A stretch of 64,000 bases of DNA from Crossaster papposus (lineage: Eukaryota; Echinodermata; Asteroidea; Velatida; Solasteridae): contig JBAIAA010000884.1 in NCBI GenBank assembly GCA_037893245.1, positions 248,001-312,000 on the forward strand. The letters run 5' to 3'. Below, piece after piece: positions 1 through 26,498 of the stretch (its first letter is position 1; every line of letters starts with the position of its first letter). A program made the position numbers and the translations under genes. The notes under the pieces were generated by a model. The model saw only the letters and a list, made by a program, of their open reading frames with translations, searched no databases and was not told the DNA's origin.

Positions 1-606
1 TGAATACCGTGGATTCTATCCAGCTTAGCTATTAGGTCAGGCCGGTAGGATTGGGTCGATGGGGTTATGAAAACCATGGATTCTATCAAGCTTAGCTATT
101 AGGTCAGGCCGATAGGATTGGGTCGATTGGGATTTTCCATGGATTCTATCCAGCTTAGCTATTAGGTCAGGCCGGTAGGATTGGGTCGATGGGAATATAA
201 ATACCTTGGATTCTATCCAACTTAGCTAAGGTCAGGCCGATAGGACTGGGTCGATGGGAATATAATACCTTGGATTCTATCAAGCTTAGCTAACAGATCA
301 AGCCGATAGGATTGGGTTGGGTGGCTTGTGTGTAAAGCCTTTGCCTCCAAGTAAGGTTCATAATGTACATATTGAAAGTTTCGTTCACTGTTTGTGTAGA
401 TTTGCTAAACTATACATTTTGGGAAACGTTAGGAAATACTCAACATAAAAACCAATGTTTACATTTGTTTTTAGGTTCTTTTGAAAAAATGGTTCCTTAA
501 TGTGACGTGACACATGAAAAGTCATTGGGTGTCACTTGCATCCTTCGCAATTCAGCACACCAGCTGCGAGTAAGGATGATTAGCCTCCCCAATTATTATT
601 ATTATA
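1..606. repeat. Representative 606-bp satellite unit with five subrepeats and a spacer
   Basis: Subrepeat starts, marked by the CC before GTGG, ATGG or TTGG, fall at about 7, 74, 137, 204 and 268, giving spacings of 67, 63, 67 and 64 bp. The fifth subrepeat runs into the spacer at GGGTTGGGTGGCTTG. The spacer (about 325-606) is single-copy within the unit. It carries a CRE-like TGACGTGA and a short stem: GTGACAC at 507-513 pairs with GTGTCAC at 529-535. The same stem is present in nearly all units. The spacer ends in an (ATT)n run of slightly variable length, which accounts for the 609-bp units. Confidence 0.9.
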
Positions 607-3600
607 TGAATACCGTGGATTCTATCCAGCTTAGCTATTAGGTCAGGCCGGTAGGATTGGGTCGATGGGGTTATGAAAACCATGGATTCTATCAAGCTTA
701 GCTACCTATTAGGTCAGGCCGATAGGATTGGGTCGATTGGGATTTTCCATGGATTCTATCCAGCTTAGCTATTAGGTCAGGCCGGTAGGATTGGGTCGAT
801 GGGAATATAAATACCTTGGATTCTATCCAACTTAGCTAAGGTCAGGCCGATAGGACTGGGTCGATGGGAATATAATACCTTGGATTCTATCAAGCTTAGC
901 TAACAGATCAAGCCGATAGGATTGGGTTGGGTGGCTTGTGTGTAAAGCCTTTGCCTCCAAGTAAGGTTCATAATGTACATATTGAAAGTTTCGTTCACTG
1001 TTTGTGTAGATTTGCTAAACTATACATTTTTGGAAACGTTAGGAAATACTCAACATAAAAACCAATGTTTACATTTGTTTTTAGGTTCTTTTGAAAAAAT
1101 GGTTCTTTAATGTGACGTGACACATGAAAAGTCATTGGGTGTCACTTGCATCCTTCGCAATTCAGCACACCAGCTGCGAGTAAGGATGATTAGCCTCCCC
1201 AATTATTATTATTATATGAATACCGTGGATTCTATCCAGCTTAGCTATTAGGTCAGGCCGGTAGGATTGGGTCGATGGGGTTATGAAAACCATGGATTCT
1301 ATCAAGCTTAGCTATTAGGTCAGGCCGATAGGATTGGGTCGATTGGGATTTTCCATGGATTCTATCCAGCTTAGCTATTAGGTCAGGCCGGTAGGATTGG
1401 GTCGATGGGAATATAAATACCTTGGATTCTATCCAACTTAGCTAAGGTCAGGCCGATAGGACTGGGTCGATGGGAATATAATACCTTGGATTCTATCAAG
1501 CTTAGCTAACAGATCAAGCCGATAGGATTGGGTTGGGTGGCTTGTGTGTAAAGCCTTTGCCTCCAAGTAAGGTTCATAATGTACATATTGAAAGTTTCGT
1601 TCACTGTTTGTGTAGATTTGCTAAACTATACATTTTTGGAAACGTTAGGAAATACTCAACATAAAAACCAATGTTTACATTTGTTTTTAGGTTCTTTTGA
1701 AAAAATGGTTCTTTAATGTGACGTGACACATGAAAAGTCATTGGGTGTCACTTGCATCCTTCGCAATTCAGCACACCAGCTGCGAGTAAGGATGATTAGC
1801 CTCCCCAATTATTATTATTATATGAATACCGTGGATTCTATCCAGCTTAGCTATTAGGTCAGGCCGGTAGGATTGGGTCGATGGGGTTATGAAAACCATG
1901 GATTCTATCAAGCTTAGCTATTAGGTCAGGCCGATAGGATTGGGTCGATTGGGATTTTCCATGGATTCTATCCAGCTTAGCTATTAGGTCAGGCCGGTAG
2001 GATTGGGTCGATGGGAATATAAATACCTTGGATTCTATCCAACTTAGCTAAGGTCAGGCCGATAGGACTGGGTCGATGGGAATATAATACCTTGGATTCT
2101 ATCAAGCTTAGCTAACAGATCAAGCCGATAGGATTGGGTTGGGTGGCTTGTGTGTAAAGCCTTTGCCTCCAAGTAAGGTTCATAATGTACATATTGAAAG
2201 TTTCGTTCACTGTTTGTGTAGATTTGCTAAACTATACATTTTTGGAAACGTTAGGAAATACTCAACATAAAAACCAATGTTTACATTTGTTTTTAGGTTC
2301 TTTTGAAAAAATGGTTCTTTAATGTGACGTGACACATGAAAAGTCATTGGGTGTCACTTGCATCCTTCGCAATTCAGCACACCAGCTGCGAGTAAGGATG
2401 ATTAGCCTCCCCAATTATTATTATTATATGAATACCGTGGATTCTATCCAGCTTAGCTATTAGGTCAGGCCGGTAGGATTGGGTCGATGGGGTTATGAAA
2501 ACCATGGATTCTATCAAGCTTAGCTATTAGGTCAGGCCGATAGGATTGGGTCGATTGGGATTTTCCATGGATTCTATCCAGCTTAGCTATTAGGTCAGGC
2601 CGGTAGGATTGGGTCGATGGGAATATAAATACCTTGGATTCTATCCAACTTAGCTAAGGTCAGGCCGATAGGACTGGGTCGATGGGAATATAATACCTTG
2701 GATTCTATCAAGCTTAGCTAACAGATCAAGCCGATAGGATTGGGTTGGGTGGCTTGTGTGTAAAGCCTTTGCCTCCAAGTAAGGTTCATAATGTACATAT
2801 TGAAAGTTTCGTTCACTGTTTGTGTAGATTTGCTAAACTATACATTTTTGGAAACGTTAGGAAATACTCAACATAAAAACCAATGTTTACATTTGTTTTT
2901 AGGTTCTTTTGAAAAAATGGTTCTTTAATGTGACGTGACACATGAAAAGTCATTGGGTGTCACTTGCATCCTTCGCAATTCAGCACACCAGCTGCGAGTA
3001 AGGATGATTAGCCTCCCCAATTATTATTATTATATGAATACCGTGGATTCTATCCAGCTTAGCTATTAGGTCAGGCCGGTAGGATTGGGTCGATGGGGTT
3101 ATGAAAACCATGGATTCTATCAAGCTTAGCTATTAGGTCAGGCCGATAGGATTGGGTCGATTGGGATTTTCCATGGATTCTATCCAGCTTAGCTATTAGG
3201 TCAGGCCGGTAGGATTGGGTCGATGGGAATATAAATACCTTGGATTCTATCCAACTTAGCTAAGGTCAGGCCGATAGGACTGGGTCGATGGGAATATAAT
3301 ACCTTGGATTCTATCAAGCTTAGCTAACAGATCAAGCCGATAGGATTGGGTTGGGTGGCTTGTGTGTAAAGCCTTTGCCTCCAAGTAAGGTTCATAATGT
3401 ACATATTGAAAGTTTCGTTCACTGTTTGTGTAGATTTGCTAAACTATACATTTTTGGAAACGTTAGGAAATACTCAACATAAAAACCAATGTTTACATTT
3501 GTTTTTAGGTTCTTTTGAAAAAATGGTTCTTTAATGTGACGTGACACATGAAAAGTCATTGGGTGTCACTTGCATCCTTCGCAATTCAGCACACCAGCTG

Positions 3601-6600
3601 CGAGTAAGGATGATTAGCCTCCCCAATTATTATTATTATATGAATACCGTGGATTCTATCCAGCTTAGCTCTTAGGTCAGGCCGGTAGGATTGGGTCGAT
3701 GGGGTTATGAAAACCATGGATTCTATCAAGCTTAGCTATTAGGTCAGGCCGATAGGATTGGGTCGATTGGGATTTTCCATGGATTCTATCCAGCTTAGCT
3801 ATTAGGTCAGGCCGGTAGGATTGGGTCGATGGGAATATAAATACCTTGGATTCTATCCAACTTAGCTAAGGTCAGGCCGATAGGACTGGGTCGATGGGAA
3901 TATAATACCTTGGATTCTATCAAGCTTAGCTAACAGATCAAGCCGATAGGATTGGGTTGGGTGGCTTGTGTGTAAAGCCTTTGCCTCCAAGTAAGGTTCA
4001 TAATGTACATATTGAAAGTTTCGTTCACTGTTTGTGTAGATTTGCTAAACTATACATTTTTGGAAACGTTAGGAAATACTCAACATAAAAACCAATGTTT
4101 ACATTTGTTTTTAGGTTCTTTTGAAAAAATGGTTCTTTAATGTGACGTGACACATGAAAAGTCATTGGGTGTCACTTGCATCCTTCGCAATTCAGCACAC
4201 CAGCTGCGAGTAAGGATGATTAGCCTCCCCAATTATTATTATTATATGAATACCGTGGATTCTATCCAGCTTAGCTATTAGGTCAGGCCGGTAGGATTGG
4301 GTCGATGGGGTTATGAAAACCATGGATTCTATCAAGCTTAGCTATTAGGTCAGGCCGATAGGATTGGGTCGATTGGGATTTTCCATGGATTCTATCCAGC
4401 TTAGCTATTAGGTCAGGCCGGTAGGATTGGGTCGATGGGAATATAAATACCTTGGATTCTATCCAACTTAGCTAAGGTCAGGCCGATAGGACTGGGTCGA
4501 TGGGAATATAATACCTTGGATTCTATCAAGCTTAGCTAACAGATCAAGCCGATAGGATTGGGTTGGGTGGCTTGTGTGTAAAGCCTTTGCCTCCAAGTAA
4601 GGTTCATAATGTACATATTGAAAGTTTCGTTCACTGTTTGTGTAGATTTGCTAAACTATACATTTTTGGAAACGTTAGGAAATACTAAACATAAAAACCA
4701 ATGTTTACATTTGTTTTTAGGTTCTTTTGAAAAAATGGTTCTTTAATGTGACGTGACACATGAAAAGTCATTGGGTGTCACTTGCATCCTTCGCAATTCA
4801 GCACACCAGCTGCGAGTAAGGATGATTAGCCTCCCCAATTATTATTATTATATGAATACCGTGGATTCTATCCAGCTTAGCTATTAGGTCAGGCCGGTAG
4901 GATTGGGTCGATGGGGTTATGAAAACCATGGATTCTATCAAGCTTAGCTATTAGGTCAGGCCGATAGGATTGGGTCGATTGGGATTTTCCATGGATTCTA
5001 TCCAGCTTAGCTATTAGGTCAGGCCGGTAGGATTGGGTCGATGGGAATATAAATACCTTGGATTCTATCCAACTTAGCTAAGGTCAGGCCGATAGGACTG
5101 GGTCGATGGGAATATAATACCTTGGATTCTATCAAGCTTAGCTAACAGATCAAGCCGATAGGATTGGGTTGGGTGGCTTGTGTGTAAAGCCTTTGCCTCC
5201 AAGTAAGGTTCATAATGTACATATTGAAAGTTTCGTTCACTGTTTGTGTAGATTTGCTAAACTATACATTTTTGGAAACGTTAGGAAATACTCAACATAA
5301 AAACCAATGTTTACATTTGTTTTTAGGTTCTTTTGAAAAAATGGTTCTTTAATGTGACGTGACACATGAAAAGTCATTGGGTGTCACTTGCATCCTTCGC
5401 AATTCAGCACACCAGCTGCGAGTAAGGATGATTAGCCTCCCCAATTATTATTATTATTATATGAATACCGTGGATTCTATCCAGCTTAGCTATTAGGTCA
5501 GGCCGGTAGGATTGGGTCGATGGGGTTATGAAAACCATGGATTCTATCAAGCTTAGCTATTAGGTCAGGCCGATAGGATTGGGTCGATTGGGATTTTCCA
5601 TGGATTCTATCCAGCTTAGCTATTAGGTCAGGCCGGTAGGATTGGGTCGATGGGAATATAAATACCTTGGATTCTATCCAACTTAGCTAAGGTCAGGCCG
5701 ATAGGACTGGGTCGATGGGAATATAATACCTTGGATTCTATCAAGCTTAGCTAACAGATCAAGCCGATAGGATTGGGTTGGGTGGCTTGTGTGTAAAGCC
5801 TTTGCCTCCAAGTAAGGTTCATAATGTACATATTGAAAGTTTTGTTCACTGTTTGTGTAGATTTGCTAAACTATACATTTTTGGAAACGTTAGGAAATAC
5901 TCAACATAAAAACCAATGTTTACATTTGTTTTTAGGTTCTTTTGAAAAAATGGTTCTTTAATGTGACGTGACACATGAAAAGTCATTGGGTGTCACTTGC
6001 ATCCTTCGCAATTCAGCACACCAGCTGCGAGTAAGGATGATTAGCCTCCCCAATTATTATTATTATATGAATACCGTGGATTCTATCCAGCTTAGCTATT
6101 AGGTCAGGCCGGTAGGATTGGGTCGATGGGGTTATGAAAACCATGGATTCTATCAAGCTTAGCTATTAGGTCAGGCCGATAGGATTGGGTCGATTGGGAT
6201 TTTCCATGGATTCTATCCAGCTTAGCTATTAGGTCAGGCCGGTAGGATTGGGTCGATGGGAATATAAATACCTTGGATTCTATCCAACTTAGCTAAGGTC
6301 AGGCCGATAGGACTGGGTCGATGGGAATATAATACCTTGGATTCTATCAAGCTTAGCTAACAGATCAAGCCGATAGGATTGGGTTGGGTGGCTTGTGTGT
6401 AAAGCCTTTGCCTCCAAGTAAGGTTCATAATGTACATATTGAAAGTTTCGTTCACTGTTTGTGTAGATTTGCTAAACTATACATTTTTGGAAACGTTAGG
6501 AAATACTCAACATAAAAACCAATGTTTACATTTGTTTTTAGGTTCTTTTGAAAAAATGGTTCTTTAATGTGACGTGACACATGAAAAGTCATTGGGTGTC

Positions 6601-9600
6601 ACTTGCATCCTTCGCAATTCAGCACACCAGCTGCGAGTAAGGATGATTAGCCTCCCCAATTATTATTATTATATGAATACCGTGGATTCTATCCAGCTTA
6701 GCTATTAGGTCAGGCCGGTAGGATTGGGTCGATGGGGTTATGAAAACCATGGATTCTATCAAGCTTAGCTATTAGGTCAGGCCGATAGGATTGGGTCGAT
6801 TGGGATTTTCCATGGATTCTATCCAGCTTAGCTATTAGGTCAGGCCGGTAGGATTGGGTCGATGGGAATATAAATACCTTGGATTCTATCCAACTTAGCT
6901 AAGGTCAGGCCGATAGGACTGGGTCGATGGGAATATAATACCTTGGATTCTATCAAGCTTAGCTAACAGATCAAGCCGATAGGATTGGGTTGGGTGGCTT
7001 GTGTGTAAAGCCTTTGCCTCCAAGTAAGGTTCATAATGTACATATTGAAAGTTTCGTTCACTGTTTGTGTAGATTTGCTAAACTATACATTTTTGGAAAC
7101 GTTAGGAAATACTCAACATAAAAACCAATGTTTACATTTGTTTTTAGGTTCTTTTGAAAAAATGGTTCTTTAATGTGACGTGACACATGAAAAGTCATTG
7201 GGTGTCACTTGCATCCTTCGCAATTCAGCACACCAGCTGCGAGTAAGGATGATTAGCCTCCCCAATTATTATTATTATTATATGAATACCGTGGATTCTA
7301 TCCAGCTTAGCTATTAGGTCAGGCCGGTAGGATTGGGTCGATGGGGTTATGAAAACCATGGATTCTATCAAGCTTAGCTATTAGGTCAGGCCGATAGGAT
7401 TGGGTCGATTGGGATTTTCCATGGATTCTATCCAGCTTAGCTATTAGGTCAGGCCGGTAGGATTGGGTCGATGGGAATATAAATACCTTGGATTCTATCC
7501 AACTTAGCTAAGGTCAGGCCGATAGGACTGGGTCGATGGGAATATAATACCTTGGATTCTATCAAGCTTAGCTAACAGATCAAGCCGATAGGATTGGGTT
7601 GGGTGGCTTGTGTGTAAAGCCTTTGCCTCCAAGTAAGGTTCATAATGTACATATTGAAAGTTTTGTTCACTGTTTGTGTAGATTTGCTAAACTATACATT
7701 TTTGGAAACGTTAGGAAATACTCAACATAAAAACCAATGTTTACATTTGTTTTTAGGTTCTTTTGAAAAAATGGTTCTTTAATGTGACGTGACACATGAA
7801 AAGTCATTGGGTGTCACTTGCATCCTTCGCAATTCAGCACACCAGCTGCGAGTAAGGATGATTAGCCTCCCCAATTATTATTATTATATGAATACCGTGG
7901 ATTCTATCCAGCTTAGCTATTAGGTCAGGCCGGTAGGATTGGGTCGATGGGGTTATGAAAACCATGGATTCTATCAAGCTTAGCTATTAGGTCAGGCCGA
8001 TAGGATTGGGTCGATTGGGATTTTCCATGGATTCTATCCAGCTTAGCTATTAGGTCAGGCCGGTAGGATTGGGTCGATGGGAATATAAATACCTTGGATT
8101 CTATCCAACTTAGCTAAGGTCAGGCCGATAGGACTGGGTCGATGGGAATATAATACCTTGGATTCTATCAAGCTTAGCTAACAGATCAAGCCGATAGGAT
8201 TGGGTTGGGTGGCTTGTGTGTAAAGCCTTTGCCTCCAAGTAAGGTTCATAATGTACATATTGAAAGTTTCGTTCACTGTTTGTGTAGATTTGCTAAACTA
8301 TACATTTTTGGAAACGTTAGGAAATACTCAACATAAAAACCAATGTTTACATTTGTTTTTAGGTTCTTTTGAAAAAATGGTTCTTTAATGTGACGTGACA
8401 CATGAAAAGTCATTGGGTGTCACTTGCATCCTTCGCAATTCAGCACACCAGCTGCGAGTAAGGATGATTAGCCTCCCCAATTATTATTATTATATGAATA
8501 CCGTGGATTCTATCCAGCTTAGCTATTAGGTCAGGCCGGTAGGATTGGGTCGATGGGGTTATAAAAACCATGGATTCTATCAAGCTTAGCTATTAGGTCA
8601 GGCCGATAGGATTGGGTCGATTGGGATTTTCCATGGATTCTATCCAGCTTAGCTATTAGGTCAGGCCGGTAGGATTGGGTCGATGGAAATATAAATACCT
8701 TGGATTCTATCCAACTTAGCTAAGGTCAGGCCGATAGGACTGGGTCGATGGGAATATAATACCTTGGATTCTATCAAGCTTAGCTAACAGATCAAGCCGA
8801 TAGGATTGGGTTGGGTGGCTTGTGTGTAAAGCCTTTGCCTCCAAGTAAGGTTCATAATGTACATATTGAAAGTTTCGTTCACTGTTTGTGTAGATTTGCT
8901 AAACTATACATTTTTGGAAACGTTAGGAAATACTCAACATAAAAACCAATGTTTACATTTGTTTTTAGGTTCTTTTGAAAAAATGGTTCTTTAATGTGAC
9001 GTGACACATGAAAAGTCATTGGGTGTCACTTGCATCCTTCGCAATTCAGCACACCAGCTGCGAGTAAGGATGATTAGCCTCCCCAATTATTATTATTATA
9101 TGAATACCGTGGATTCTATCCAGCTTAGCTATTAGGTCAGGCCGGTAGGATTGGGTCGATGGGGTTATGAAAACCATGGATTCTATCAAGCTTAGCTATT
9201 AGGTCAGGCCGATAGGATTGGGTCGATTGGGATTTTCCATGGATTCTATCCAGCTTAGCTATTAGGTCAGGCCGGTAGGATTGGGTCGATGGGAATATAA
9301 ATACCTTGGATTCTATCCAACTTAGCTAAGGTCAGGCCGATAGGACTGGGTCGATGGGAATATAATACCTTGGATTCTATCAAGCTTAGCTAACAGATCA
9401 AGCCGATAGGATTGGGTTGGGTGGCTTGTGTGTAAAGCCTTTGCCTCCAAGTAAGGTTCATAATGTACATATTGAAAGTTTCGTTCACTGTTTGTGTAGA
9501 TTTGCTAAACTATACATTTTTGGAAACGTTAGGAAATACTCAACATAAAAACCAATGTTTACATTTGTTTTTAGGTTCTTTTGAAAAAATGGTTCTTTAA

Positions 9601-12130
9601 TGTGACGTGACACATGAAAAGTCATTGGGTGTCACTTGCATCCTTCGCAATTCAGCACACCAGCTGCGAGTAAGGATGATTAGCCTCCCCAATTATTATT
9701 ATTATATGAATACCGTGGATTCTATCCAGCTTAGCTATTAGGTCAGGCCGGTAGGATTGGGTCGATGGGGTTATGAAAACCATGGATTCTATCAAGCTTA
9801 GCTATTAGGTCAGGCCGATAGGATTGGGTCGATTGGGATTTTCCATGGATTCTATCCAGCTTAGCTATTAGGTCAGGCCGGTAGGATTGGGTCGATGGGA
9901 ATATAAATACCTTGGATTCTATCCAACTTAGCTAAGGTCAGGCCGATAGGACTGGGTCGATGGGAATATAATACCTTGGATTCTATCAAGCTTAGCTAAC
10001 AGATCAAGCCGATAGGATTGGGTTGGGTGGCTTGTGTGTAAAGCCTTTGCCTCCAAGTAAGGTTCATAATGTACATATTGAAAGTTTCGTTCACTGTTTG
10101 TGTAGATTTGCTAAACTATACATTTTTGGAAACGTTAGGAAATACTCAACATAAAAACCAATGTTTACATTTGTTTTTAGGTTCTTTTGAAAAAATGGTT
10201 CTTTAATGTGACGTGACACATGAAGTCATTGGGTGTCACTTGCATCCTTCGCAATTCAGCACACCAGCTGCGAGTAAGGATGATTAGCCTCCCCAATTAT
10301 TATTATTATATGAATACCGTGGATTCTATCCAGCTAAGCTATTAGGTCAGGCCGGTAGGATTGGGTCGATGGGGTTATGAAAACCATGGATTCTATCAAG
10401 CTTAGCTATTAGGTCAGGCCGATAGGATTGGGTCGATTGGGATTTTCCATGGATTCTATCCAGCTTAGCCATTAGGTCAGGCCGGTAGGATTGGGTCGAT
10501 GGGAATATAAATACCTTGGATTCTATCCAACTTAGCTAAGGTCAGGCCGATAGGACTGGGTCGATGGGAATATAATACCTTGGATTCTATCAAGCTTAGC
10601 TAACAGATCAAGCCGATAGGATTGGGTTGGGTGGCTTGTGTGTAAAGCCTTTGCCTCCAAGTAAGGTTCATAATGTACATATTGAAAGTTTCGTTCACTG
10701 TTTGTGTAGATTTGCTAAACTATACATTTTTGGAAACGTTAGGAAATACTCAACATAAAAACCAATGTTTACATTTGTTTTTAGGTTCTTTTGAAAAAAT
10801 GGTTCTTTAATGTGACGTGACACATGAAAAGTCATTGGGTGTCACTTGCATCCTTCGCAATTCAGCACACCAGCTGCGAGTAAGGATGATTAGCCTCCCC
10901 AATTATTATTATTATATGAATACCGTGGATTCTATCCAGCTTAGCTATTAGGTCAGGCCGGTAGGATTGGGTCGATGGGGTTATGAAAACCATGGATTCT
11001 ATCAAGCTTAGCTATTAGGTCAGGCCGATAGGATTGGGTCGATTGGGATTTTCCATGGATTCTATCCAGCTTAGCTATTAGGTCAGGCCGGTAGGATTGG
11101 GTCGATGGGAATATAAATACCTTGGATTCTATCCAACTTAGCTAAGGTCAGGCCGATAGGACTGGGTCGATGGGAATATAATACCTTGGATTCTATCAAG
11201 CTTAGCTAACAGATCAAGCCGATAGGATTGGGTTGGGTGGCTTGTGTGTAAAGCCTTTGCCTCCAAGTAAGGTTCATAATGTACATATTGAAAGTTTCGT
11301 TCACTGTTTGTGTAGATTTGCTAAACTATACATTTTTGGAAACGTTAGGAAATACTCAACATAAAAACCAATGTTTACATTTGTTTTTAGGTTCTTTTGA
11401 AAAAATGGTTCTTTAATGTGACGTGACACATGAAAAGTCATTGGGTGTCACTTGCATCCTTCGCAATTCAGCACACCAGCTGCGAGTAAGGATGATTAGC
11501 CTCCCCAATTATTATTATTATATGAATACCGTGGATTCTATCCAGCTTAGCTATTAGGTCAGGCCGGTAGGATTGGGTCGATGGGGTTATGAAAACCATG
11601 GATTCTATCAAGCTTAGCTATTAGGTCAGGCCGATAGGATTGGGTCGATTGGGATTTTCCATGGATTCTATCCAGCTTAGCTATTAGGTCAGGCCGGTAG
11701 GATTGGGTCGATGGGAATATAAATACCTTGGATTCTATCCAACTTAGCTAAGGTCAGGCCGATAGGACTGGGTCGATGGGAATATAATACCTTGGATTCT
11801 ATCAAGCTTAGCTAACAGATCAAGCCGATAGGATTGGGTTGGGTGGCTTGTGTGTAAAGCCTTTGCCTCCAAGTAAGGTTCATAATGTACATATTGAAAG
11901 TTTCGTTCACTGTTTGTGTAGATTTGCTATAAACTATACATTTTTGGAAACGTTAGGAAATACTCAACATAAAAACCAATGTTTACATTTGTTTTTAGGT
12001 TCTTTTGAAAAAATGGTTCTTTAATGTGACGTGACACATGAAAAGTCATTGGGTGTCACTTGCATCCTTCGCAATTCAGCACACCAGCTGCGAGTAAGGA
12101 TGATTAGCCTCCCCAATTATTATTATTATA

Positions 12131-12931
12131 TGAATACCGTGGATTCTATCCAGCTTAGCTATTAGGTCAGGCCGGTAGGATTGGGTCGATGGGGTTATGA
12201 AAACCATGGATTCTATCAAGCTTAGCTATTAGGTCAGGCCGATAGGATTGGGTCGATTGGGATTTTCCATGGATTCTATCCAGCTTAGCTATTAGGTCAG
12301 GCCGGTAGGATTGGGTCGATGGGAATATAAATACCTTGGATTCTATCCAACTTAGCTAAGGTCAGGCCGATAGGACTGGGTCGATGGGGTTATGAAAACC
12401 ATGGATTCTATCAAGCTTAGCTATTAGGTCAGGCCGATAGGATTGGGTCGATTGGGATTTTCCATGGATTCTATCCAGCTTAGCTATTAGGTCAGGCCGG
12501 TAGGATTGGGTCGATGGGAATATAAATACCTTGGATTCTATCCAACTTAGCTAAGGTCAGGCCGATAGGACTGGGTCGATGGGAATATAATACCTTGGAT
12601 TCTATCAAGCTTAGCTAACAGATCAAGCCGATAGGATTGGGTTGGGTGGCTTGTGTGTAAAGCCTTTGCCTCCAAGTAAGGTTCATAATGTACATATTGA
12701 AAGTTTCGTTCACTGTTTGTGTAGATTTGCTAAACTATACATTTTTGGAAACGTTAGGAAATACTCAACATAAAAACCAATGTTTACATTTGTTTTTAGG
12801 TTCTTTTGAAAAAATGGTTCTTTAATGTGACGTGACACATGAAAAGTCATTGGGTGTCACTTGCATCCTTCGCAATTCAGCACACCAGCTGCGAGTAAGG
12901 ATGATTAGCCTCCCCAATTATTATTATTATA
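12131..12931. repeat. Expanded 801-bp satellite unit with extra subrepeats
   Basis: This unit is 195 bp longer than its neighbours. After the fourth subrepeat it returns to GATGGGGTTATGAAAACC, the start of the second subrepeat type, and repeats subrepeats two to four before going on to the spacer. This is the product expected from unequal exchange between subrepeats inside one higher-order unit. The flanking units are normal, so the event is private to one unit and later than array formation. Confidence 0.9.
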
Positions 12932-14748
12932 TGAATACCGTGGATTCTATCCAGCTTAGCTATTAGGTCAGGCCGGTAGGATTGGGTCGATGGGGTTATG
13001 AAAACCATGGATTCTATCAAGCTTAGCTATTAGGTCAGGTCGATAGGATTGGGTCGATTGGGATTTTCCATGGATTCTATCCAGCTTAGCTATTAGGTCA
13101 GGCCGGTAGGATTGGGTCGATGGGAATATAAATACCTTGGATTCTATCCAACTTAGCTAAGGTCAGGCCGATAGGACTGGGTCGATGGGAATATAATACC
13201 TTGGATTCTATCAAGCTTAGCTAACAGATCAAGCCGATAGGATTGGGTTGGGTGGCTTGTGTGTAAAGCCTTTGCCTCCAAGTAAGGTTCATAATGTACA
13301 TATTGAAAGTTTCGTTCACTGTTTGTGTAGATTTGCTAAACTATACATTTTTGGAAACGTTAGGAAATACTCAACATAAAAACCAATGTTTACATTTGTT
13401 TTTAGGTTCTTTTGAAAAAATGGTTCTTTAATGTGACGTGACACATGAAAAGTCATTGGGTGTCACTTGCATCCTTCGCAATTCAGCACACCAGCTGCGA
13501 GTAAGGATGATTAGCCTCCCCAATTATTATTATTATATGAATACCGTGGATTCTATCCAGCTTAGCTATTAGGTCAGGCCGGTAGGATTGGGTCGATGGG
13601 GTTATGAAAACCATGGATTCTATCAAGCTTAGCTATTAGGTCAGGCCGATAGGATTGGGTCGATTGGGATTTTCCATGGATTCTATCCAGCTTAGCTATT
13701 AGGTCAGGCCGGTAGGATTGGGTCGATGGGAATATAAATACCTTGGATTCTATCCAACTTAGCTAAGGTCAGGCCGATAGGACTGGGTCGATGGGAATAT
13801 AATACCTTGGATTCTATCAAGCTTAGCTAACAGATCAAGCCGATAGGATTGGGTTGGGTGGCTTGTGTGTAAAGCCTTTGCCTCCAAGTAAGGTTCATAA
13901 TGTACATATTGAAAGTTTCGTTCACTGTTTGTGTAGATTTGCTAAACTATACATTTTTGGAAACGTTAGGAAATACTCAACATAAAAACCAATGTTTACA
14001 TTTGTTTTTAGGTTCTTTTGAAAAAATGGTTCTTTAATGTGACGTGACACATGAAAAGTCATTGGGTGTCACTTGCATCCTTCGCAATTCAGCACACCAG
14101 CTGCGAGTAAGGATGATTAGCCTCCCCAATTATTATTATTATATGAATACCGTGGATTCTATCCAGCTTAGCTATTAGGTCAGGCCGGTAGGATTGGGTC
14201 GATGGGGTTATGAAAACCATGGATTCTATCAAGCTTAGCTATTAGGTCAGGCCGATAGGATTGGGTCGATTGGGATTTTCCATGGATTCTATCCAGCTTA
14301 GCTATTAGGTCAGGCCGGTAGGATTGGGTCGATGGGAATATAAATACCTTGGATTCTATCCAACTTAGCTAAGGTCAGGCCGATAGGACTGGGTCGATGG
14401 AAAATAATACCTTGGATTCTATCAAGCTTAGCTAACAGATCAAGCCGATAGGATTGGGTTGGGTGGCTTGTGTGTAAAGCCTTTGCCTCCAAGTAAGGTT
14501 CATAATGTACATATTGAAAGTTTCGTTCACTGTTTGTGTAGATTTGCTAAACTATACATTTTTGGAAACGTTAGGAAATACTCAACATAAAAACCAATGT
14601 TTACATTTGTTTTTAGGTTCTTTTGAAAAAATGGTTCTTTAATGTGACGTGACACATGAAAAGTCATTGGGTGTCACTTGCATCCTTCGCAATTCAGCAC
14701 ACCAGCTGCGAGTAAGGATGATTAGCCTCCCCAATTATTATTATTATA

Positions 14749-16307
14749 TGAATACCGTGGATTATATCCAGCTAAGCTACATGTATTAGGTCAGGCCGGT
14801 AGGATTGGGTCGATGGGGTTATGAAAACCATGGATTCTATCAAGCTTAGCTATTAGGTCAGGCCGATAGGATTGGGTCGATTGGGATTTTCCATGGATTC
14901 TATCCAGCTTAGCTATTAGGTCAGGCCAATAGGATTGGGTCAATGGGGTTATGAATACCGTTGATTCTATTCAGCTTAGCCATTAGCTCAGGCCGATAGG
15001 ATTGGGTCGATTGGGATATACCTTGGATTCTATCCAGCTTAGCTATTAGGTCAGGCCGGTAGGATTGGGTCGATGGGAATATGAATACCTTGGATTCTAT
15101 CCAGCTTAGCTAAGGTCAGGCCGATAGGACTGGGTCGATGGGAATATAATACCTTGGATTCTATCAAGCTTAGCTAACAGATCAAGCCGATAGGATTGGT
15201 TGGGTGGCTTGTGTGTAAAGCGCTTGCCTCCAAGTCAGGTTCATAATGTACATATTGAAAGTTTCGTTCACTGTTTGTGTAGATTTGCTAAACTATACAT
15301 TTTTAGAAACGTTAGGAAATACTCAACATAAAAACCAATGTTTACATTTGTTTTTAGGTACTTTTGAAATAAATGGTTATTTAATGCGACGTGACACATG
15401 AAAAGTCATTGGGTGTCACTTGCATCCTTCGCAATTCAGCACACCAGCTGCGAGTAAGGATGATTAGCCTCCCCAATTACTATTATTATTATATGAATAC
15501 CGTTGATTCTATCCAGCTTAGCTATTAGGTCAGGCCGGTAGGATTGGGTCGATGGGGTTATGAATACATTGGATTCTATCAAGCTTAGCTATTAGGTCAG
15601 GCCGATAGGATTGGGTCAATGGGGTTATGAATACCGTTGATTCTAGTCAGCTTAGCTATTAGCTCAGGCCGATAGGATTGGGTCGATTGGGATATACCTT
15701 GGATTCTATCAAGCTTAGCTATTAGGTCAGGCCGGTAGGATTGGGTCGATGGGAATATGAATACCTTGGATTCTATCCAGCTTAGCTAAGGTCAGGCCGA
15801 TAGGACTGGGTCGATGGGAATATAATACCTTGGATTCTATCAAGCTTAGCTAACAGATCAAGCCGATAGGATTGGTTGGGTGGCTTGTGTGTAAAGCCCT
15901 TGCCTCCAAGTCAGGTTCATAATGTACATATTGAAAGTTTCGTTCACTGTTTGTGTAGATTTGCTAAACTATACATTTTTAGAAACGTTAGGAAATACTC
16001 AACATAAAAACCAATGTTTACATTTGTTTTTAGGTTCTTTTGAAAAAAATGGTTATTTAATGCGACGTGACACATGAAAAGTCATTTGGTGTCACTTGCA
16101 TCCTTCGCAATTCAGCACACCAGCTGCGAGTAAGGATGATTAGCCTCCCCAATTATTATTATTATATGAATACCGTGGATTCTATCCAGCTTAGCTATTA
16201 GGTCAGGCCGGTAGGATTGGGTCAATGGGGTTATGAATACCGTTGATTCTATTCAGCTGAGCTATTAGGTCAGGCCGATAGGATTGGGTCGATGGGGTTA
16301 TGAATAC
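14749..16307. repeat. Diverged right-hand edge of the satellite next to the TRMO exon
   Basis: The last units are longer (745 and 673 bp) and clearly more diverged than the interior. They carry rearranged subrepeats, substitutions such as TACCGTTGATTCTA, and altered spacers. The final partial unit holds only a few subrepeats and merges without a break into the exon copy at 16308-16364. Array edges escape homogenisation, so these copies probably preserve older versions of the repeat and mark the side from which the array grew. The direction of growth is inference. Confidence 0.85.
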
Positions 16308-16467
16308 CTTGGATTCTATCCAGCTTGGCTAAGGTCAGGCCGATAGGATTGGGTCGATGGGGACTGCGGATGGCGAAAACCCCAACCTTGACTCCGTCTA
16401 AACGAAGCGGCTTCACTTTGGCCTTGGTGAACCGCCCATCACCATTCTTGTGGAGATGAATAGTATC
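16308..16467 (-). CDS. TRMO: TRMO exon (TrmO/UPF0066 domain, central part), with an apparent 1-base deletion
   Basis: TRMO is the SAM-dependent enzyme that N6-methylates t6A at position 37 of certain threonine tRNAs, giving m6t6A. The minus strand encodes HKNGDGRFTKAKVKPL, then GVKVGVFAIRSPHRPNPIG and LTLAKLDRIQG, which matches the core family signature (GVFxTRSPxRPNPIG). The exon is bounded by acceptor TTTGCAG|GATAC and donor ATCCAAG|GTATT. Joined to the upstream exon (phase 2, TG|G) the frame begins W-I-L-F-I, as in the family, and then slips by one base just before HKNG, where ATCTTCCAC is expected and ATCTCCAC is present. The gene is either a pseudogene copy, or the base was lost in assembly. 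Downstream exons would lie left of the satellite, outside the window. Confidence 0.9.
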
Positions 16468-17730: not shown

Positions 17731-18745
17731 TTCAAAAAGGTGACCCCTAGATGACCTTTGACCTCGTACGCTCTAGCGAATGCAAACTGGTTCTTGCGGG
17801 GACCGAGCCGGACCCACCCACCGAGTTTGAACGCCGCACGACCCCGGGAAGGGGACGAAAAAGCGCGCACAGATTCAAAAAGGTGACCCCTAGATGACCT
17901 TTGACCTCGTACGCTCTAGCGAATGCAAACTGGTTCTTGCGGGGACCGAGCCGGACCCACCCACCGAGTTTGAACACCTTACGACCCCGGGAAGGGGACG
18001 AAAAAGCGCGCACAGATTCAAAAAGGTGACCCCTAGATGACCTTTGACCTCGTACGCTCTAGCGAATGCAAACTGGTTCCTGGTTCTTGCGGGGACCGAG
18101 CCGGACCCACCCACCGAGTTTGAACGCCTTACGACCCCGGGAAGGGGACGAAAAAGCGCGCACAGATTCAAAAAGGTGACCCCTAGATGACCTTTGACCT
18201 CGCACGCTCTAGCGAATGCAAACTGGTTCTTGCGGGGACCGAGCCGGACCCACCCACCGAGTTTGAACGCCGCACGACCCCGGGAAGGGGACGAAAAAGC
18301 GCGCACAGATTCAAAAAGGTGACCCCTAGATGACCTTTGACCTCGTACGCTCTAGCGAATGCAAACTGGTTCTTGCGGGGACCGAGCCGGACCCACCCAC
18401 CGAGTTTGAACACCTTACGACCCCGGGAAGGGGACGAAAAAGCGCGCACAGATTCAAAAAGGTGACCCCTAGATGACCTTTGACCTCGTACGCTCTAGCG
18501 AATGCAAACTGGTTCCTGGTTCTTGCGGGGACCGAGCCGGACCCACCCACCGAGTTTGAACGCCTTACGACCCCGGGAAGGGGACGAAAAAGCGCGCACA
18601 GATTCAAAAAGGTGACCCCTAGATGACCTTTGACCTCGCACGCCCTAGCGAATGCAAACTGGTTCTTGCGGGGACCGAGCCGGACCCACCCACCGAGTTT
18701 GAACGCCGCACGACCCCGGGAAGGGGACGAAAAAGCGCGCACAGA
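17731..18745. repeat. Minisatellite of 143/150-bp units with a 436-bp higher-order period
   Basis: Seven units begin with TTCAAAAAGGTGACCCC at 17731, 17874, 18017, 18167, 18310, 18453 and 18603. Spacings are 143, 143, 150, 143, 143 and 150. The 150-bp units carry a 7-bp duplication (GGTTCCTGGTTC). Variants at the GCCGCACG/ACCTTACG/GCCTTACG position cycle in threes, so a 436-bp trimer has itself been duplicated. The array ends in CAGACAGACAG repeats and ATTATATAGATATGG, which resembles the end of a dispersed mobile element. The array may be an internally expanded part of one, in minus orientation. Identical 138-codon open frames on the minus strand are a by-product of the repetition. Confidence 0.93.
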
Positions 18746-19453: not shown

Positions 19454-19860
19454 GTTCAACGCATTCGCGACTCTCTCGGCACCCGTTCGCGTTGTACACG
19501 AACACCCGACGTCTTTAAACAAGGGACCAGTCTAAAATAAAAACATTGACCAACAGAGGGCGCTCTCTGTTGTTTGAACGCCCTCTTCTGGTGGAATTGT
19601 TGCACCGCATGACTAGAAAACCTTTTTTAGTGAATGAATCCCTTCACCGTCCAAAACTTTTCGGATTAAACTACAAGAATTTAATAGAGTAACAATGTTC
19701 AACGGATCAATAGTTATTATCTTGGAAACTTGTTCAATAAAGAGGCCTGTTTTAGTGTTTAAGTAATGAATCAACAAAGTAGTTCGCCGTTGGTTGTAGT
19801 TTGTTTTATAACTTTCATAACTAAATGGCCTTCGTACCCTGTTATCGTCACCGCTATGTA
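19454..19860. other. Unassigned TRMO-intron sequence left of the DIRS element
   Basis: No coding or repeat signature is recognised. There is a short direct echo (GAGGGCGCTCTCTGTTG, then GAACGCCCTCTTCTGG) around 19555-19590. Confidence 0.35.
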
Positions 19861-19879
19861 TTATATTTCGCCAATTCCG

Positions 19880-20032
19880 TCGAGACTCACCGAGTATAGT
19901 TTTGTTGTATTGCAATCTAGACCACCCTTAAAAGCTAATGGAACGTCCCTCATTAGCATAAGAAAAGGTTTCTTACCAAAGGTAGTGGCGTGATGATGCT
20001 GCGTTCTCCTAAGGAATCTGTGTCTTTGTTTT
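19880..20032 (+). repeat. Left inverted terminal repeat of the DIRS element
   Basis: From GAGACTCACCGAGTATAG to CTAAGGAATCTGTGTCTTT it is matched by the reverse complement of 24661-24813 with only a few differences (for example AATGGAACG against AAAAAAACG). The outer 20 bp (TATTTCGCCAATTCCGTC) are specific to this end and recur complemented in the internal complementary region. Confidence 0.9.
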
Positions 20033-20059
20033 TTGTGTCGCGGTCTGACCACCACAATT

Positions 20060-21550
20060 TATTTTGCTCGCGTTCTTCACTTCTACCCGGGATTTTAGCG
20101 TTACTTTATCCATATCACTCAGCATTCCGAAGTCTCGACAAAGTTTTTCGTCAGCCCCATGCACGGTTTCTCGAGCCCCTGATGAGAAACCCTCCTCGCC
20201 TCCAGCGGATATTTTAGCCATGGCGGCTAAGGAGATAGCCCCGTCTGGGGTAAATTTGATGGACCAAGCCCAAGCTCCTCCGTGGGCTGACGGCTTTATG
20301 GGCAGTGGGCTTTCATGCCCCAAGCCCCTCTCTACTGATCTGCCTAGGCAGCCTTCACCGGCTCCAGCTCCGTCTGGTACCGGTGCGCCACGCCCATCGG
20401 CTCACCATCAGCCGCAATTTGCACCCAGTATGCAACCGTGTCCTGCTCAGCCAGGGTACTACTGGTATCCTCAACCACCGACAGCTCCCTGGGGTGCTCC
20501 CTCGGGTGGTCCAGGGGCATCTACATATGCATTTAATCAGTGAGGCATTCCTATGCAGTATTTTCCCCAGCAATTTTTGCAAGGCGATTTTTCGGACCAG
20601 CCTCCGACTCCCTTCCAGGAATGTTCGTCAACGACACGCCCCGCCCATCCCTCCGGCCCCAGTACTTGCACAGCACCCTCCATCTGATGACGGCAGCCAT
20701 CTTGATATTGTCGCCGTTAGTGACGACGAATTCTCCACTTCAACCGTTCAAACGGCTGGAACTGGAAGAGAGCCTTTTCGTCTTCCCCACAAGAAAGAGA
20801 CAGGTAACCCGATCTCCGAGAAGGTGACCCAGTGATGGGAAGAACTGAGAACTCACAAGTTGTTCTCTGAGGATTACAAAGAGGAGATTTCACCGTATAA
20901 CGTGCCTGTGGACCAGGAGAAATTATTCTCGGCCCCGGAACTTCCTCCCGGTTTGAAGAAGGTTTTCAAACAGGTAAATTCGTCAACCATTATTTGTGAC
21001 GAGAAGTTAAAAGCCTCTCATAATTACATTCTTGATGCTGTCAAACCATTGCTTCGCCTTTTTGACGCAGTTACTGATGCCGAATGCCCCAATGAAGTTC
21101 CTAAAGATCTTGTTCAGGATCATCTTTCCTCGGCCATTATTTTACTAGGCTCTGGCAGTCAGGGTTTGGCCTCAGCTAGACAACATGCGTTTGACGACAT
21201 TGTTGACCGCAAGTTTGACGTGCTGAAGAAGAATCCTCCTTCTTTAGGTGAACTCTTCGGATCATCCTTGATGAAGGACATTGAGGAAACGGAGAAAGTC
21301 AGCAAGCTGGCCTCCAAAGTCACTGGTGGGAAGTCTCTGCAGTCTAACCCATCCAAGGATAGGCGTTTCTCGCCATACCAATTTGCCTCCCGGTCCTTCA
21401 GATCACGTCGACCATCACGGGGATCCTTTAATCGTTACCAAGGTAGGGGTTACCATGGTTCAGGTTACCAACAGCCCAAGGATTTCCAGAGATCCAGAAA
21501 TTTTAGGACGGCCAACAGCACTTTAGAGAAGTCTGGCTTAAAAAACTAGA
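20060..21550 (+). pseudogene. gag-like region of the DIRS element
   Basis: The first part is rich in proline and glutamine. The second part has an open stretch with a charged, helical middle and a basic, Arg/Gly/Tyr-rich tail, as in the putative nucleic-acid-binding gag-like proteins of DIRS elements. It precedes the RT region directly. The assignment rests on position and composition, not on a conserved motif. Confidence 0.65.
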
Positions 21551-21569
21551 TGCTCAGTCTTGTTTGCCT

Positions 21570-22470
21570 AACGTACGTACCAATCCAGCATTTTCTGTAC
21601 CCTTAGCAGGTCGTTTGAGATTTTTTTCAAATTTTTGGTTAAAATTAACTCACGATCCCTGGATCATTCAGACCTTAAATGGTTACTGTTTAAGCTTCAA
21701 TTATACTCCGTTTCAGTCTTTCGTTCCTGTAACCCACGCTCCATCTAAAAAACACGCTTCGATGTTTAACCTAGAGATACAGAAAATGCTTGATAAAGGT
21801 GCCGTTACCATTGAACAGCCTGTATACAAGGACAGTTTATTTCTACTCTGTTCATGGTCCCAAAATCGTTCGGGGATCTTCGTCCAGTAGTTAATTTGCG
21901 TCCACTAAATAAATTTATTGTGCACCAACACTTCAAGATGGAGAACATTTCTTCAGTGAGAGATCTTTTAGCACACGGAGATTGGATGTGTAAAATAGAC
22001 CTGAAGGATGCTTATTTTTCAGTTCCTATTGATTTTGGTCACAGAAGATTTCTTCGTTTTATCTGGAATGAGGTCATTTATCAATTTACTTGTCTTCCTT
22101 TCGGTTTGTCAAGTGCCCCCCGCACTTTTACTAAGATTCTTAAACCAGTAGCTTTCCACCTCAGAGAGTGTGGTATTCGCTGTATATTTTACCTGAATGA
22201 CATTCTGGTCCTTGGATCATCCTTCCATGGATGTATGACAAACACTCAGGTGACGACCAATCTTCTTCGTAATTTGGGTTTCATCATCAACGATGAAAAA
22301 TCTTGTATCGTCCCTAGTCAAGATATTACATACCTCGGCTTTGTTATCAACTCCTTAGATATGACCCTCTCTTTAAACCAAGAAAAGATCCAGCAGGTCA
22401 TCAGTCACTGCCAGAAGATTTTGGAAACAGAACAAGTCACTGTTCGACAACTTTCCAGCCTATAAGGCAG
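21570..22470 (+). pseudogene. Reverse transcriptase region of the DIRS element
   Basis: Recognisable RT blocks in order are DLRPVVNLRPLNKFI, CKIDLKDAYFSVPI, QFTCLPFGLSSAPRTFTK and the palm region around YLNDILVLG. The class (with DIRS and Gypsy) is clear from the DLKDAYF and LPFGLSSAP motifs. It is part of a non-intact element. Confidence 0.9.
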
Positions 22471-22669
22471 GCTATCTTAAACAATCCTTGCAGTACTTCA
22501 GGCTCGGGTTTTTTACCGCAGTCTTCAGGAAGACAAAATCTCCGCTCTCCGCAGGGAGAACAGTTACGAGTCCACAGTTACTCTTTCGCAGAATTCTCGA
22601 GAGGAGCTGAGAACATGGATTCGTTGCCTTCATGCCTGGAACGGTCGGCTATTTCTTCATCTGACACCA

Positions 22670-23450
22670 GATGTGACCCTTCAAACAGATGCGTCAATGT
22701 TGGGATGGGGCGCTTGTCTTCAATCCAAGATAGGAGGCCGTTGGACGTCGCAAGAACAACTCCATCATATCAATTACCTCGAGCTGCTTGCAGTTTGGTA
22801 CGCCATCCAATCTTTCTTCAAAGAACGGCGGGACCTTCATGTTCTCCTTCAGATGGACAACTCCACGGCCATTGCTTATATCAATCACCAGGGGGGAACT
22901 CATTCGGTTCCACTGTCGAAACTCGCTGTCAATATCTGGGTTTGGTGTCTCGAGAGAAACATCACTCTAGTAGCACAACACATACCAGGGTCTCAAAATA
23001 TCACGGCAGACATGATGTCACGGGTTTTCGACGATCGCACAGAATGGCAGCTTCTCCCAGAAATATTCAACAAGATTTCCAGTGCTCTGGATTTCATCCC
23101 ATCAGTAGACCTCTTCGCGTCTCGTTTGAACACGCAGCTGGAGACCTTTGTGTCATGGCAACCAGACCCCATGGCCTGGAGAGTCGACGCTCTTCTTCTC
23201 AGCTGGAAGAACATAAACGGTTATGTTTTCCCTCCGTTTTCGCTTCTTCTGAAGATTCTTCGAAAGATCAGCGAGGAGGAAGCTACAGTGATTCTTGTCG
23301 CTCCGGTGTGGAAGTCCCAGGCCTGGTACCCCAGACTGTTGGAGCTTGCAGTAGAAATGCCTCTACTCCTTCCCAGGAGAAGGGATCTCCTTCAGCTTCC
23401 CCACGATCGGTCTCAAGTACATCCTCTGATAGGCAGCCTCCAACTGGCCG
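22670..23450 (+). pseudogene. RNase H and methyltransferase-like domains of the DIRS element
   Basis: RNase H is marked by LQTDASMLGWGACL, INYLELLAVWYAI, LLQMDNSTAIAYINHQGG and HIPGSQNITADMMSR. It is followed by the DIRS-specific DAM-like domain with IPSVDLFASRLNTQ, SWQPDPMAWRVDAL and YVFPPFSLLLKIL. This order (RT, RH, MT) is typical of DIRS1-like elements. Confidence 0.88.
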
Positions 23451-24450: not shown

Positions 24451-24454
24451 AGTC

Positions 24455-24546
24455 TACTCGGTGAGTCTCGACGGAATTGGCGAAATATAATTCCCCAATT
24501 ACATAAAGGTACTTACCTGCAATATAATTGGAATTATATAAGACAA
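24455..24546. repeat. Internal complementary region of the DIRS element
   Basis: The first ~35 bases complement the left terminus (CGACGGAATTGGCGAAATAT) and the next ~65 complement the right terminus (ATTCCCCAATTACATAAAGG onward). Both element ends are thus joined in one internal template. In DIRS elements this region is thought to template circle formation before recombinase-mediated insertion. Confidence 0.88.
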
Positions 24547-24660
24547 TGGAGGAGAGACTCAACCTCCCTCCCTAATTGTTCTCTTCAGTTTCTTTCTGCA
24601 GATAACCCGCCCGAGTTATTCTAGTTGGTTGCCAATGATGTTTTACTTACCGCTAGCTTC

Positions 24661-24873
24661 AAAAAGACACAGATTCCTTAGGAGAACGCAGCATCATCAC
24701 GCCACTACCTTTGGTAAGAAACCTTTTCTTATGCTAATGAGGGACGTTTTTTTAGCTTTTAAGGGTGGTCTAGATCGCAATACAACAAAACTATACTCGG
24801 TGAGTCTCTCCTCCATTGTCTTATATAATTCCAATTATATTGCAGGTAAGTACCTTTATGTAATTGGGGAATT
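24661..24873 (-). repeat. Right inverted terminal repeat of the DIRS element with end extension
   Basis: 24661-24813 is the reverse complement of the left repeat. 24814-24873 is a right-specific extension whose complement is found in the internal complementary region. Beyond it the sequence is unique. Confidence 0.88.
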
Positions 24874-26243
24874 TTTCCATCTGTTAAATGATTGTTCTCT
24901 TATTTGCATAAGCCGTAGGTCTGAGCATGTTTGGTATGTAATTACGTAATTTCTGGTTGCCCCACTTAACCACCGAGGCACGCGGGGGGATTGAGTCAGT
25001 TGCGTTCACGCTCCCAACCAACTCACACATTCTTTCTGTAGTCAACCATTTGTAAGTATTTTTACCTTTGATTTATATCATGTTTATTTCCGAAGATGTA
25101 ATTTACATGGAAGCATTTATCTTAAGGTTTATATTGCTGTTAAATTGTTTGCCTTCTAGTTTATAAGCCTTTTAATGTACACTAGAAATATCCGAACATT
25201 CCTCAGAGCCAACGCCCTTTATAGTTCATGGTGCGTCGGGGAAACAAATATGAATTCTTAGTTTGGGTTAGTAATTGCAAATTACTAGAATGATAGTGGT
25301 ATTTGTTGAATTATATACGTGTATTTATTATTTGTGCAGCACCCCAGAATGCCGCCGTAAATTCCTGTTTATCTCGCTGTGTGTGCGGACGATCCCTTAC
25401 CCCGGGAACGATTGTAAGTTTATATACGGGTTTCTTTATTTTCATAACTGATTGATTGTTGCTCCTCTGTAACTGATTTTGCCGACAAGGTGCTGCCCAA
25501 TTTTCTCCAAACCTAATGTAATTATTTTATTGCACATTTGTATTTCTTTAAATTATAATGCTTAATAATAACTATTTTGTGTATTTTGCTTTAGTTTTCA
25601 CCTGCCTGCATCAGCGGTGTGCGAAATAAATAGGGGTAATGGGTCCACGGACTTCGTCTGGTTATTTTAGTGGTACATGTATATACAGCGACATACCCTT
25701 TTTATTTTCAAATTTTGGCCTTGGCGCCCTTCCTACTGGCCTTGGTGCCCTCCCAAATTTTGAATACTCCAAGGCCAAAGTGGCCTTTCCCTAAACAAAT
25801 TGTAATTGTAATTCCAGGCCTGCCACACTGTATGATGTCGCGTCATATGATAATAATAAGGCTTCACTCTTCTAAAAAAAATGCAAACGAGAACAATTAA
25901 GATCGGGAGAAAAGTGACGATGCGAAACAAATACAAATATAAACAAATTGTTTTGATGCAGCAGCAAAAAAGGATGTGCGCGAGGATGAGAAACTAATTT
26001 ATTTGTTTGTTTTGGCCTGATATATGGTTTCACTAGCTGACTTGATCCCACCCATACCTGTCAGTTGTTAGTGTGATAACATTCAAAATTAGCTAGAATA
26101 TACAATGTGCCATTGGGAAGAAACAGTTATTGTGAAAATGCAAATCTGGCTGATGGCCGAATCTAAAAACATCTTCAGAACTACAGTATCCTACACTTCC
26201 TTGGTACCATCTACATCTACATAGTGACTGTCTTGAGACTCAC
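24874..26243. other. TRMO intron sequence, AT-rich, one small repeat
   Basis: There is no gene here. A short element near 25690-25790 has two near-copies of TGGCCTTGG(C/T)GCCCT with the complementary CCAAGGCCAAAGTGGCC, so it can fold back. A dispersed repeat is likely. The rest is unrecognised. Confidence 0.4.
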
Positions 26244-26498
26244 CAAATGTGGGAAAATTGGCTTAAACCCTGGACGGAATGCTCCTGATTGGGGAAGACC
26301 TCTTTTAGTACCGTCAGCTTGGCTCTTGAAAAGGCACAGATGGACGGCTGACGAGGAGTGCCGTTCTTGCTCTTGAAACACGACTTGATAAATCCAATCG
26401 GCGATAGGCCAAGATGTTTCTGGGTCACTTGTCGAGTCTGACCCCACTGGTGGAGAGTGACATCGTGTGGATGATGCTGGACTTTCTTGATCTTCCAT
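26244..26498 (-). CDS. TRMO: TRMO 5' coding exon (N-terminal part of the TrmO domain)
   Basis: The minus strand encodes LSPIGFIKSCFKSKNGTPRQ, then PSICAFSRAKL and HSVQGLSQFSHIW. This is the conserved start of the animal TRMO domain (P-x-G-x-I/L-x-S-C-F..KNGTPRQPSI...G...FSH.W). The exon ends at donor CATTTG|GTGAGT in phase 2 and joins exactly in phase to the exon at 16308-16467, 9.8 kb away. An ATG at 26496-26498 opens an acidic Ser/Pro-rich N-terminus (MEDQESPASSTRCHSPP), but in a frame one base off from the domain. The domain frame runs back to a stop just upstream. Either a second single-base shift lies near 26400, or the domain is entered by splicing at one of several AGs around 26430-26455 from an unseen first exon. 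Confidence 0.9.

Follow-up and report, generated by a model that had tools for sequence, protein, structure and literature searches.

A sea star satellite DNA very probably derived from an exon-intron border of TRMO

Tandem duplications of exon-intron boundaries that resemble minisatellites, called 'mirages', have been described in the Adh3 and globin genes of amphioxus (PMC3087553). According to the portion of that report available here, splicing is undisturbed, copy number is unstable (BflGb6 carries 6 and 3 units in two haplotypes), and homogenisation operates inside the arrays but not at their edges. In the current study, we describe a related arrangement in the sea star Crossaster papposus, found in a stretch of 64,000 nucleotides (assembly GCA_037893245.1, contig JBAIAA010000884.1; C884:248001-312000) that we refer to in its entirety as the window. 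The first 16 kb of the window are occupied by a satellite array that ends at exon 2 of a TRMO copy, TRMO being the gene for tRNA t6A37 N6-methyltransferase. Based on sequence comparisons, we consider it very likely that this satellite began as a minisatellite at the exon 2/intron 2 border of an intact TRMO gene, and that it was truncated in a copy, gained a spacer and was amplified.

The Crossaster repeat shares several characteristics with the amphioxus mirages, as far as the accessible text of that report portrays them (PMC3087553). In both, a working gene contains tandem duplications that extend across an exon-intron boundary, splice signals are retained in many of the units, and the boundary copies, which here form the exon-side edge, escape homogenisation. 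Copy number also varies, between haplotypes in amphioxus and between two genes in Crossaster. The unit consists of 53 bp of exon and 10 bp of intron with its GT, and so includes sequence from both sides of the splice site. On contigs C162 and C217 it occupies the same boundary of an otherwise intact gene, whereas at the window locus the exons are out of frame. The main difference is that the amphioxus mirages comprise few units inside a gene, whereas the Crossaster repeat appears to have left its gene, gained a spacer and become a multi-megabase satellite.

Other satellites have different sources. In the part of a review of satellite DNA available here, ribosomal DNA (rDNA) spacers and mobile elements are the origins named, and the word 'intron' has 0 occurrences and 'exon' 1 (PMC5615363). 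There, as here, a pre-existing sequence becomes the satellite monomer, but in Crossaster the source would be a protein-coding exon with its 5′ splice site. The giant introns of the Drosophila Y genes kl-3 and kl-5 likewise contain satellite DNA within a gene, although, in the text available, these are simple satellites transcribed in the intron (PMC6508621). Here the repeat is the exon border itself, and large arrays lie behind truncated gene copies. Among the matches listed in the open-licence literature, judged by titles and the starts of abstracts, none traced a satellite to an exon or an exon-intron border. Mirage minisatellites themselves were already known; a mirage as the traced source of a multi-megabase satellite is new.

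Border arrays in two intact TRMO genes

A search of the genome (a 1.023-Gb assembly in 1,841 contigs) revealed two complete four-exon TRMO genes, in which all exons are open and, by inspection, all borders are GT/AG.

C162, TRMO exons at 1158606, 1160019, 1163876 and 1169366
C217, TRMO exons at 1857232, 1858640, 1860667 and 1863033

Exons 3 and 4 were found only at these two sites in a protein search in which 100 of 3,997 candidates were scored. The two genes are about 91% identical over exon 1, intron 1 and exon 2, and 82% identical in the 3′ flank, and may be paralogues or deeply diverged haplotypes.

Behind exon 2, each gene carries diverged extra copies of a subrepeat composed of the 53-bp exon end and about 10 bp of intron, and these run from exon 2 to unique intron sequence. 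Intron 2 of the C217 gene contains 20 such tandem copies. That of the C162 gene contains 10, four directly behind exon 2 and six about 2.5 kb further, the two groups being separated by ~2.5 kb of other sequence (L019:2920-5440). Both arrays terminate in AAGGTATTCATATGCTAATTAGCTGAGTAAAAAAAAG, where the donor of the last copy passes into unique intron. With up to three mismatches allowed, this junction is present in the genome exactly twice, once in each of these two genes; none of 42 further exon-2 copies has it. The ~280-bp spacer that is part of the amplified satellite has no match in intervals L019 and L020 fetched around the intact genes, and a single 30-bp match of 83% in L021 lies beyond exon 4. 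The frame-breaking changes of the repeats are missing from exon 2 of both genes. Judged from these junctions, the gene arrays are built as a local tandem duplication of the exon-intron border would lead one to expect, with both ends of the original array fixed.

Comparisons with homologues indicate that the exon end is not peculiar to this genome. The 109-residue TRMO reading of the window is 85% identical to TRMO of Patiria miniata, 82% to that of Acanthaster, 77% to that of Asterias and 72% to that of Amphiura, and the Patiria sequence P0238 carries an identical SPHRPNPIGLTLAKLDRIQG. For the residues HRPNPIG, the H, R, P and G are matched in 312-315 of 316 aligned homologues and the N in 278. 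Four animal-like open reading frames (ORFs), P0013, P0015, P0016 and P0020, lose their resemblance to TRMO at the very residue where exon 2 ends, in keeping with a phase-1 donor located behind the first base of a glycine codon; in P0020, the next 59 residues past the break contain no second copy. The exon end is therefore ancestral, although the preliminary description of this DNA had allowed for the opposite result, which would have reversed the direction of origin. Intron 2 is not universal, since ORFs P0027, P0028 and P0034 continue through the break point.

The window array and its broken TRMO copy

The features of the window listed below are all on the minus strand.

1..16297 (-), satellite array in the former TRMO intron 2, with 138 subrepeats of ~59-67 bp and 26 spacers
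947..1552 (-), example of the homogenised 606-bp higher-order unit (5 subrepeats plus spacer), 99.7-100% identical to most interior units
14479..16297 (-), exon-side array edge, with irregular units of 7, 6 and 2 subrepeats, then the exon's own
15881..16168 (-), spacer nearest the exon (~280 bp), missing from the two intact TRMO genes as fetched
16298..16360 (-), exon stretch corresponding to one subrepeat, 63 bp (the last 53 bp of exon 2 and 10 bp from the start of intron 2)
16308..16467 (-), TRMO exon 2 copy, a truncated pseudogene of the W class (see below), with acceptor TTTGCAG/G and donor CAAG/GTATTC
26243..26401 (-), TRMO exon 1 copy (PIGFIKSCF...FSHIW), ending TG/GTGAGT

The preliminary description had recognised the ~65-bp subrepeat as the reverse complement of the 3′ end of the TRMO exon plus its 5′ splice site, and this is borne out, except that the intron contributes 10 bp (16298-16307) rather than about 20. 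Both of the strings that it had listed as shared recur in reverse complement: GGTCAGGCCGATAGGATTGG has 28 occurrences and CCTTGGATTCTATCCAGCTT has 4, exon included. The subrepeat copies nearest the exon (15084 and 15760) align with the exon unit over 59 bp with 2 mismatches and 0 gaps, and the copy at 15084 scores 108 against the exon, compared with a maximum of 26 among 2000 mononucleotide shuffles. The array adjoins the exon without a gap, as had been proposed, and its last subrepeat is the exon itself, which brings the subrepeat count to 139. The 12 bp of exon around the 5′ border of the unit have 0 occurrences in the array.

The spacer-to-spacer interval is exactly 606 bp in 17 of 25 cases, in agreement with the unit length first given. 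Interior units are 99.3-100% identical to each other, with the exception of one 803-bp unit at about 98%. Next to the exon, the two edge units that are complete share 93-97% identity with other units of the array. Position 1 of the window is still inside the array, and the left window edge cuts the first unit. Mean pairwise identity among the 138 subrepeat copies is 90.4%, compared with 85.6% in the C162 gene and 90.0% in the C217 gene.

In the window exon, the TrmO frame over its own subrepeat unit is intact. It had been claimed that satellite copies on the minus strand still give PIGLTLAKLDRIQG; this frame is kept in only 27 of the 138 copies, whereas most of the others read TAA TAG (one is untranslated). 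The GT at the donor position is kept in 112 of the 138 copies and the exact CAAG/GTAT context in 55, but homogenised copies are not independent observations, and therefore these counts permit no conclusion on selection.

The exon is of the TrmO/UPF0066 type, as first assigned: its reading matches TrmO_N (PF01980; E 2.1e-12, 47.7 bits, with a curated cut-off of 26.8) and four solved microbial TrmO-family proteins. However, no complete open TRMO gene exists at this locus, where exons 1 and 2 both have frame breaks. Compared with the intact genes, exon 2 is one base short near its 5′ end, so that DTIHLH... is a shifted reading; because of this missing base, residues 56-58 of the window reading are unmatched in all 316 aligned homologues. 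The reading is also changed at two well-conserved sites: it has L at a site where 298 of 316 homologues have P (1 has L), and I at one occupied by T or S in 311 of 316 (by I in 4). In exon 1, a frame break lies between PIGFIKSCF... and the MEDQESP start, whereas the intact genes have this start in frame. Exons 1 and 2 are present in the window, with no later TRMO exon among the matches listed.

Spread of the satellite and its possible origins

A 33-base exon-2 motif has 44 occurrences in the genome (reversed-pattern control, 0). Two are in the intact genes, and the other 42, the window's included, are distributed over 15 contigs other than those of the two genes. Within the reach of the searches, exons 3 and 4 accompany none of these 42 copies. 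All 35 of the copies that were read are disabled in exon 2: 16 have a stop (N class), 17 have the missing base (W class, that of the window) and 2 are frameshifted otherwise. The same base is lost in 17 of the 35 loci read, and sequencing error is thereby ruled out as the source of the frameshift. As for the seven other copies, four exon-2 matches contain a stop and three start only at residue 119, as in the W class. In a midpoint-rooted tree of 353 bp around exon 2, C162 stands apart and C217 comes next; of the remaining sequences, 16 rows make up the N class, and 19 rows the W class together with two relatives. In most of ten truncated loci printed, the initial subrepeats after exon 2 resemble, by eye, the first copies of C217. 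By its sequence, the window exon is thus a late broken copy, and not the seed as originally supposed.

Among the 17 truncated loci fetched over 10 kb, 16 lead into spacer-bearing arrays. In every one of the ten arrays that were inspected (the window's among them), the first spacer is flanked by the same pair of subrepeat fragments, which makes a single spacer insertion most likely. In the fetched loci, distances from one spacer to the next are most often near 409, 475, 541, 606, 673, 805 and 871 bp, which corresponds to 280 + n × 66, although there are exceptions to this ladder (e.g. 688, 816 and 1015-1019). Genome-wide, we counted 7,411 spacer 30-mers (control, 0) and 23,139 subrepeat cores (reversed-pattern control, 0). 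At 280 bp per spacer and 66 bp per subrepeat, the satellite totals about 3.6 Mb, or 0.35% of the assembly, and this figure is probably too low, since subrepeats of the spacer-side type should escape the core pattern. With long head-to-tail arrays, thousands of copies and homogenised units, the repeat has the structural attributes of a satellite. Exact matches to it in viral or prokaryote contigs numbered 0, which is what an animal repeat would lead one to expect.

The spacer itself has been compared with several candidate sources. It follows the donor directly, and could be taken for ancestral TRMO intron, but this is ruled out by its absence from both intact introns, which continue with other sequence. 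The 40 best of 648 genome candidates that were scored all come from contigs bearing exon-2 copies. Weak resemblances to the spacer, over 42 and 53 columns, are seen in two DNA stretches near the genes, with only 8 shuffles each as control. One end of the spacer is an (ATT)n run. The other, GTGGCTTGTGTGTAAAGCGCTTGCCTCC (edge copies, window 15200-15240, plus-strand reading), has what we take to be a likeness to the head of a tRNA-derived short interspersed element (SINE). Rfam and ARAGORN give this assignment no support: the Rfam tRNA model has no match at E ≤ 10 in window 15000-16310, and ARAGORN reports no tRNA in the window.

We propose that replication slippage or unequal exchange would have produced the seed array at the exon 2/intron 2 border of a working TRMO gene, and that a C217-like copy would then have been truncated inside the array. 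A single insertion would have added the ~280-bp spacer, after which unequal exchange and gene conversion could have amplified and homogenised the compound units (280 + n × 66 bp). Recombination between arrays may have multiplied whole macro-blocks comprising upstream sequence, exons 1 and 2, and the array, so that the exon 2 at every array edge would be a fossil of the starting point. Amplification was most likely selfish or neutral, with gene function kept by the two intact copies. The order first suggested, in which border duplication precedes spacer gain and amplification, agrees with the spacer-free arrays in two intact genes and with their far junction being found only there; what does not stand is the placement of the seed at the window exon.

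Several points weigh against this proposal. The scope of the protein search leaves room for a further distant TRMO copy, and the reading of exon 2 covers 35 of the 42 copies. Divergence fails to order the stages: median identity to the exon unit is 91.4% in C162, 93.7% in C217 and 91.9-93.3% in ten other arrays including the window's, and divergence alone cannot date the stages when these values (91.4-93.7%) are similar everywhere. Few forks of the tree are well supported (2 of 17 inner branches starred), bootstrap values are unsettled, and the root is a midpoint one. One of the 17 loci over 10 kb, L026, is without a whole spacer, and has two subrepeats and 18 bp of spacer followed by other sequence. 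No source for the spacer was found among the gene introns, neighbourhood and genome candidates compared. Finally, the satellite-free, single-copy intron of relatives is judged from ORF ends only.

The distribution of the copies could instead suggest that a transposon, Helitron-like for example, captured the TRMO exon with its array and spread it by transposition rather than by segmental duplication or unequal exchange. The scatter over 15 contigs and the SINE-like look of the spacer, an unconfirmed motif, would suit such a course. We nevertheless judge it very unlikely, since exon-2 copies that share a contig are always on one strand, at consecutive distances of 85-273 kb. Moreover, the sequence at window 33600-34000, which is 7 kb upstream of the window exon 1, recurs at least 38 times (its own locus included) with 96-100% identity when 40 of 83 candidates are scored, and 36 of these 38 recurrences are on contigs with exon-2 copies. 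This association indicates that whole blocks of upstream sequence, exons 1 and 2 and array were multiplied, for which recombination between arrays would be the natural mechanism. One-strand macro-blocks with the 5′ part of TRMO are repeated along C351, C432, C589, C884, C49, C377 and C603, and could mark a heterochromatic or ampliconic domain.

Sequence likeness alone has no direction, satellites do invade introns, and the subrepeats are no more diverged from the exon in the two genes than elsewhere. A satellite that existed first might therefore have invaded or converted TRMO intron 2 and overwritten the exon end. This is very unlikely, however, because the 53 bp encode a TrmO core common to solved microbial TrmO-family proteins and animal homologues. 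Furthermore, the gene arrays are without the spacer of the amplified form, their start falls exactly at exon 2 and their other end lies within the native intron of the intact gene, and exon 2 of both genes is free of the frame-breaking changes of the repeats.

An origin at the window's own exon, where exon and array adjoin without a gap, is extremely unlikely. This exon belongs to a derived, frameshifted class, with 4 loci sharing an identical 353-bp sequence. Exon and array likewise adjoin at many loci (with 40 of 846 candidates scored), and the spacer-free stages are in intact genes; the stages found genome-wide contradict a local origin. It is also exceedingly improbable that collapse or expansion of repeats by the assembler created the copies: the assembly is indeed divided into 1,841 contigs (1.02 Gb), certain loci show 99.9% identity over 3 kb, and haplotype duplication may inflate the counts, but the copies fall into distinct exon-2 classes, each with stops and deletions of its own, and the ladder-like lengths of the units and private indels also argue otherwise.

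How a satellite is born is difficult to observe, since homogenisation obliterates the starting point. Here, one and the same genome would retain the seed, an intermediate in truncated form, the array with its spacer and a megabase product that has been homogenised; the direction of origin can be polarised, as the unit codes for a conserved segment of a protein. The finding joins intron-border minisatellites, which have been discussed as sources of new introns, with the field of satellite DNA. It can now be tested whether mirages commonly escape genes, and how splicing proceeds in a gene whose real 5′ splice site is followed by 10-20 near copies of itself. We regard as possible, although doubtful, the broader notion that a splice junction of a housekeeping gene has been turned into structural chromosomal DNA, with (peri)centromeric or other heterochromatin of this sea star composed of the TRMO-derived satellite, and that exon-intron mirages are a general nursery of animal satellites.

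Other repeats and mobile elements of the window

Intron 1 of the window's TRMO copy contains a second, unrelated tandem array at 17731-18745 (143-bp unit, 7 copies, 95% matches), and the homologous loci L002-L008 diverge from the window at 17623. The same intron also holds a DIRS-like element at 19860-24873, which has a reverse transcriptase ORF, an ORF that matches a tyrosine recombinase (Phage_integrase) and inverted terminal stretches. Two long overlapping ORFs of 247 and 386 codons at 39422-41267 (-) have no Pfam match at E ≤ 0.001, and possibly encode a transposon protein. A Gypsy-type long terminal repeat retrotransposon at 47732-52346 has two identical 280-bp repeats, and its protease, reverse transcriptase and RNase H matches lie in one ORF and its integrase match in a second, overlapping ORF.

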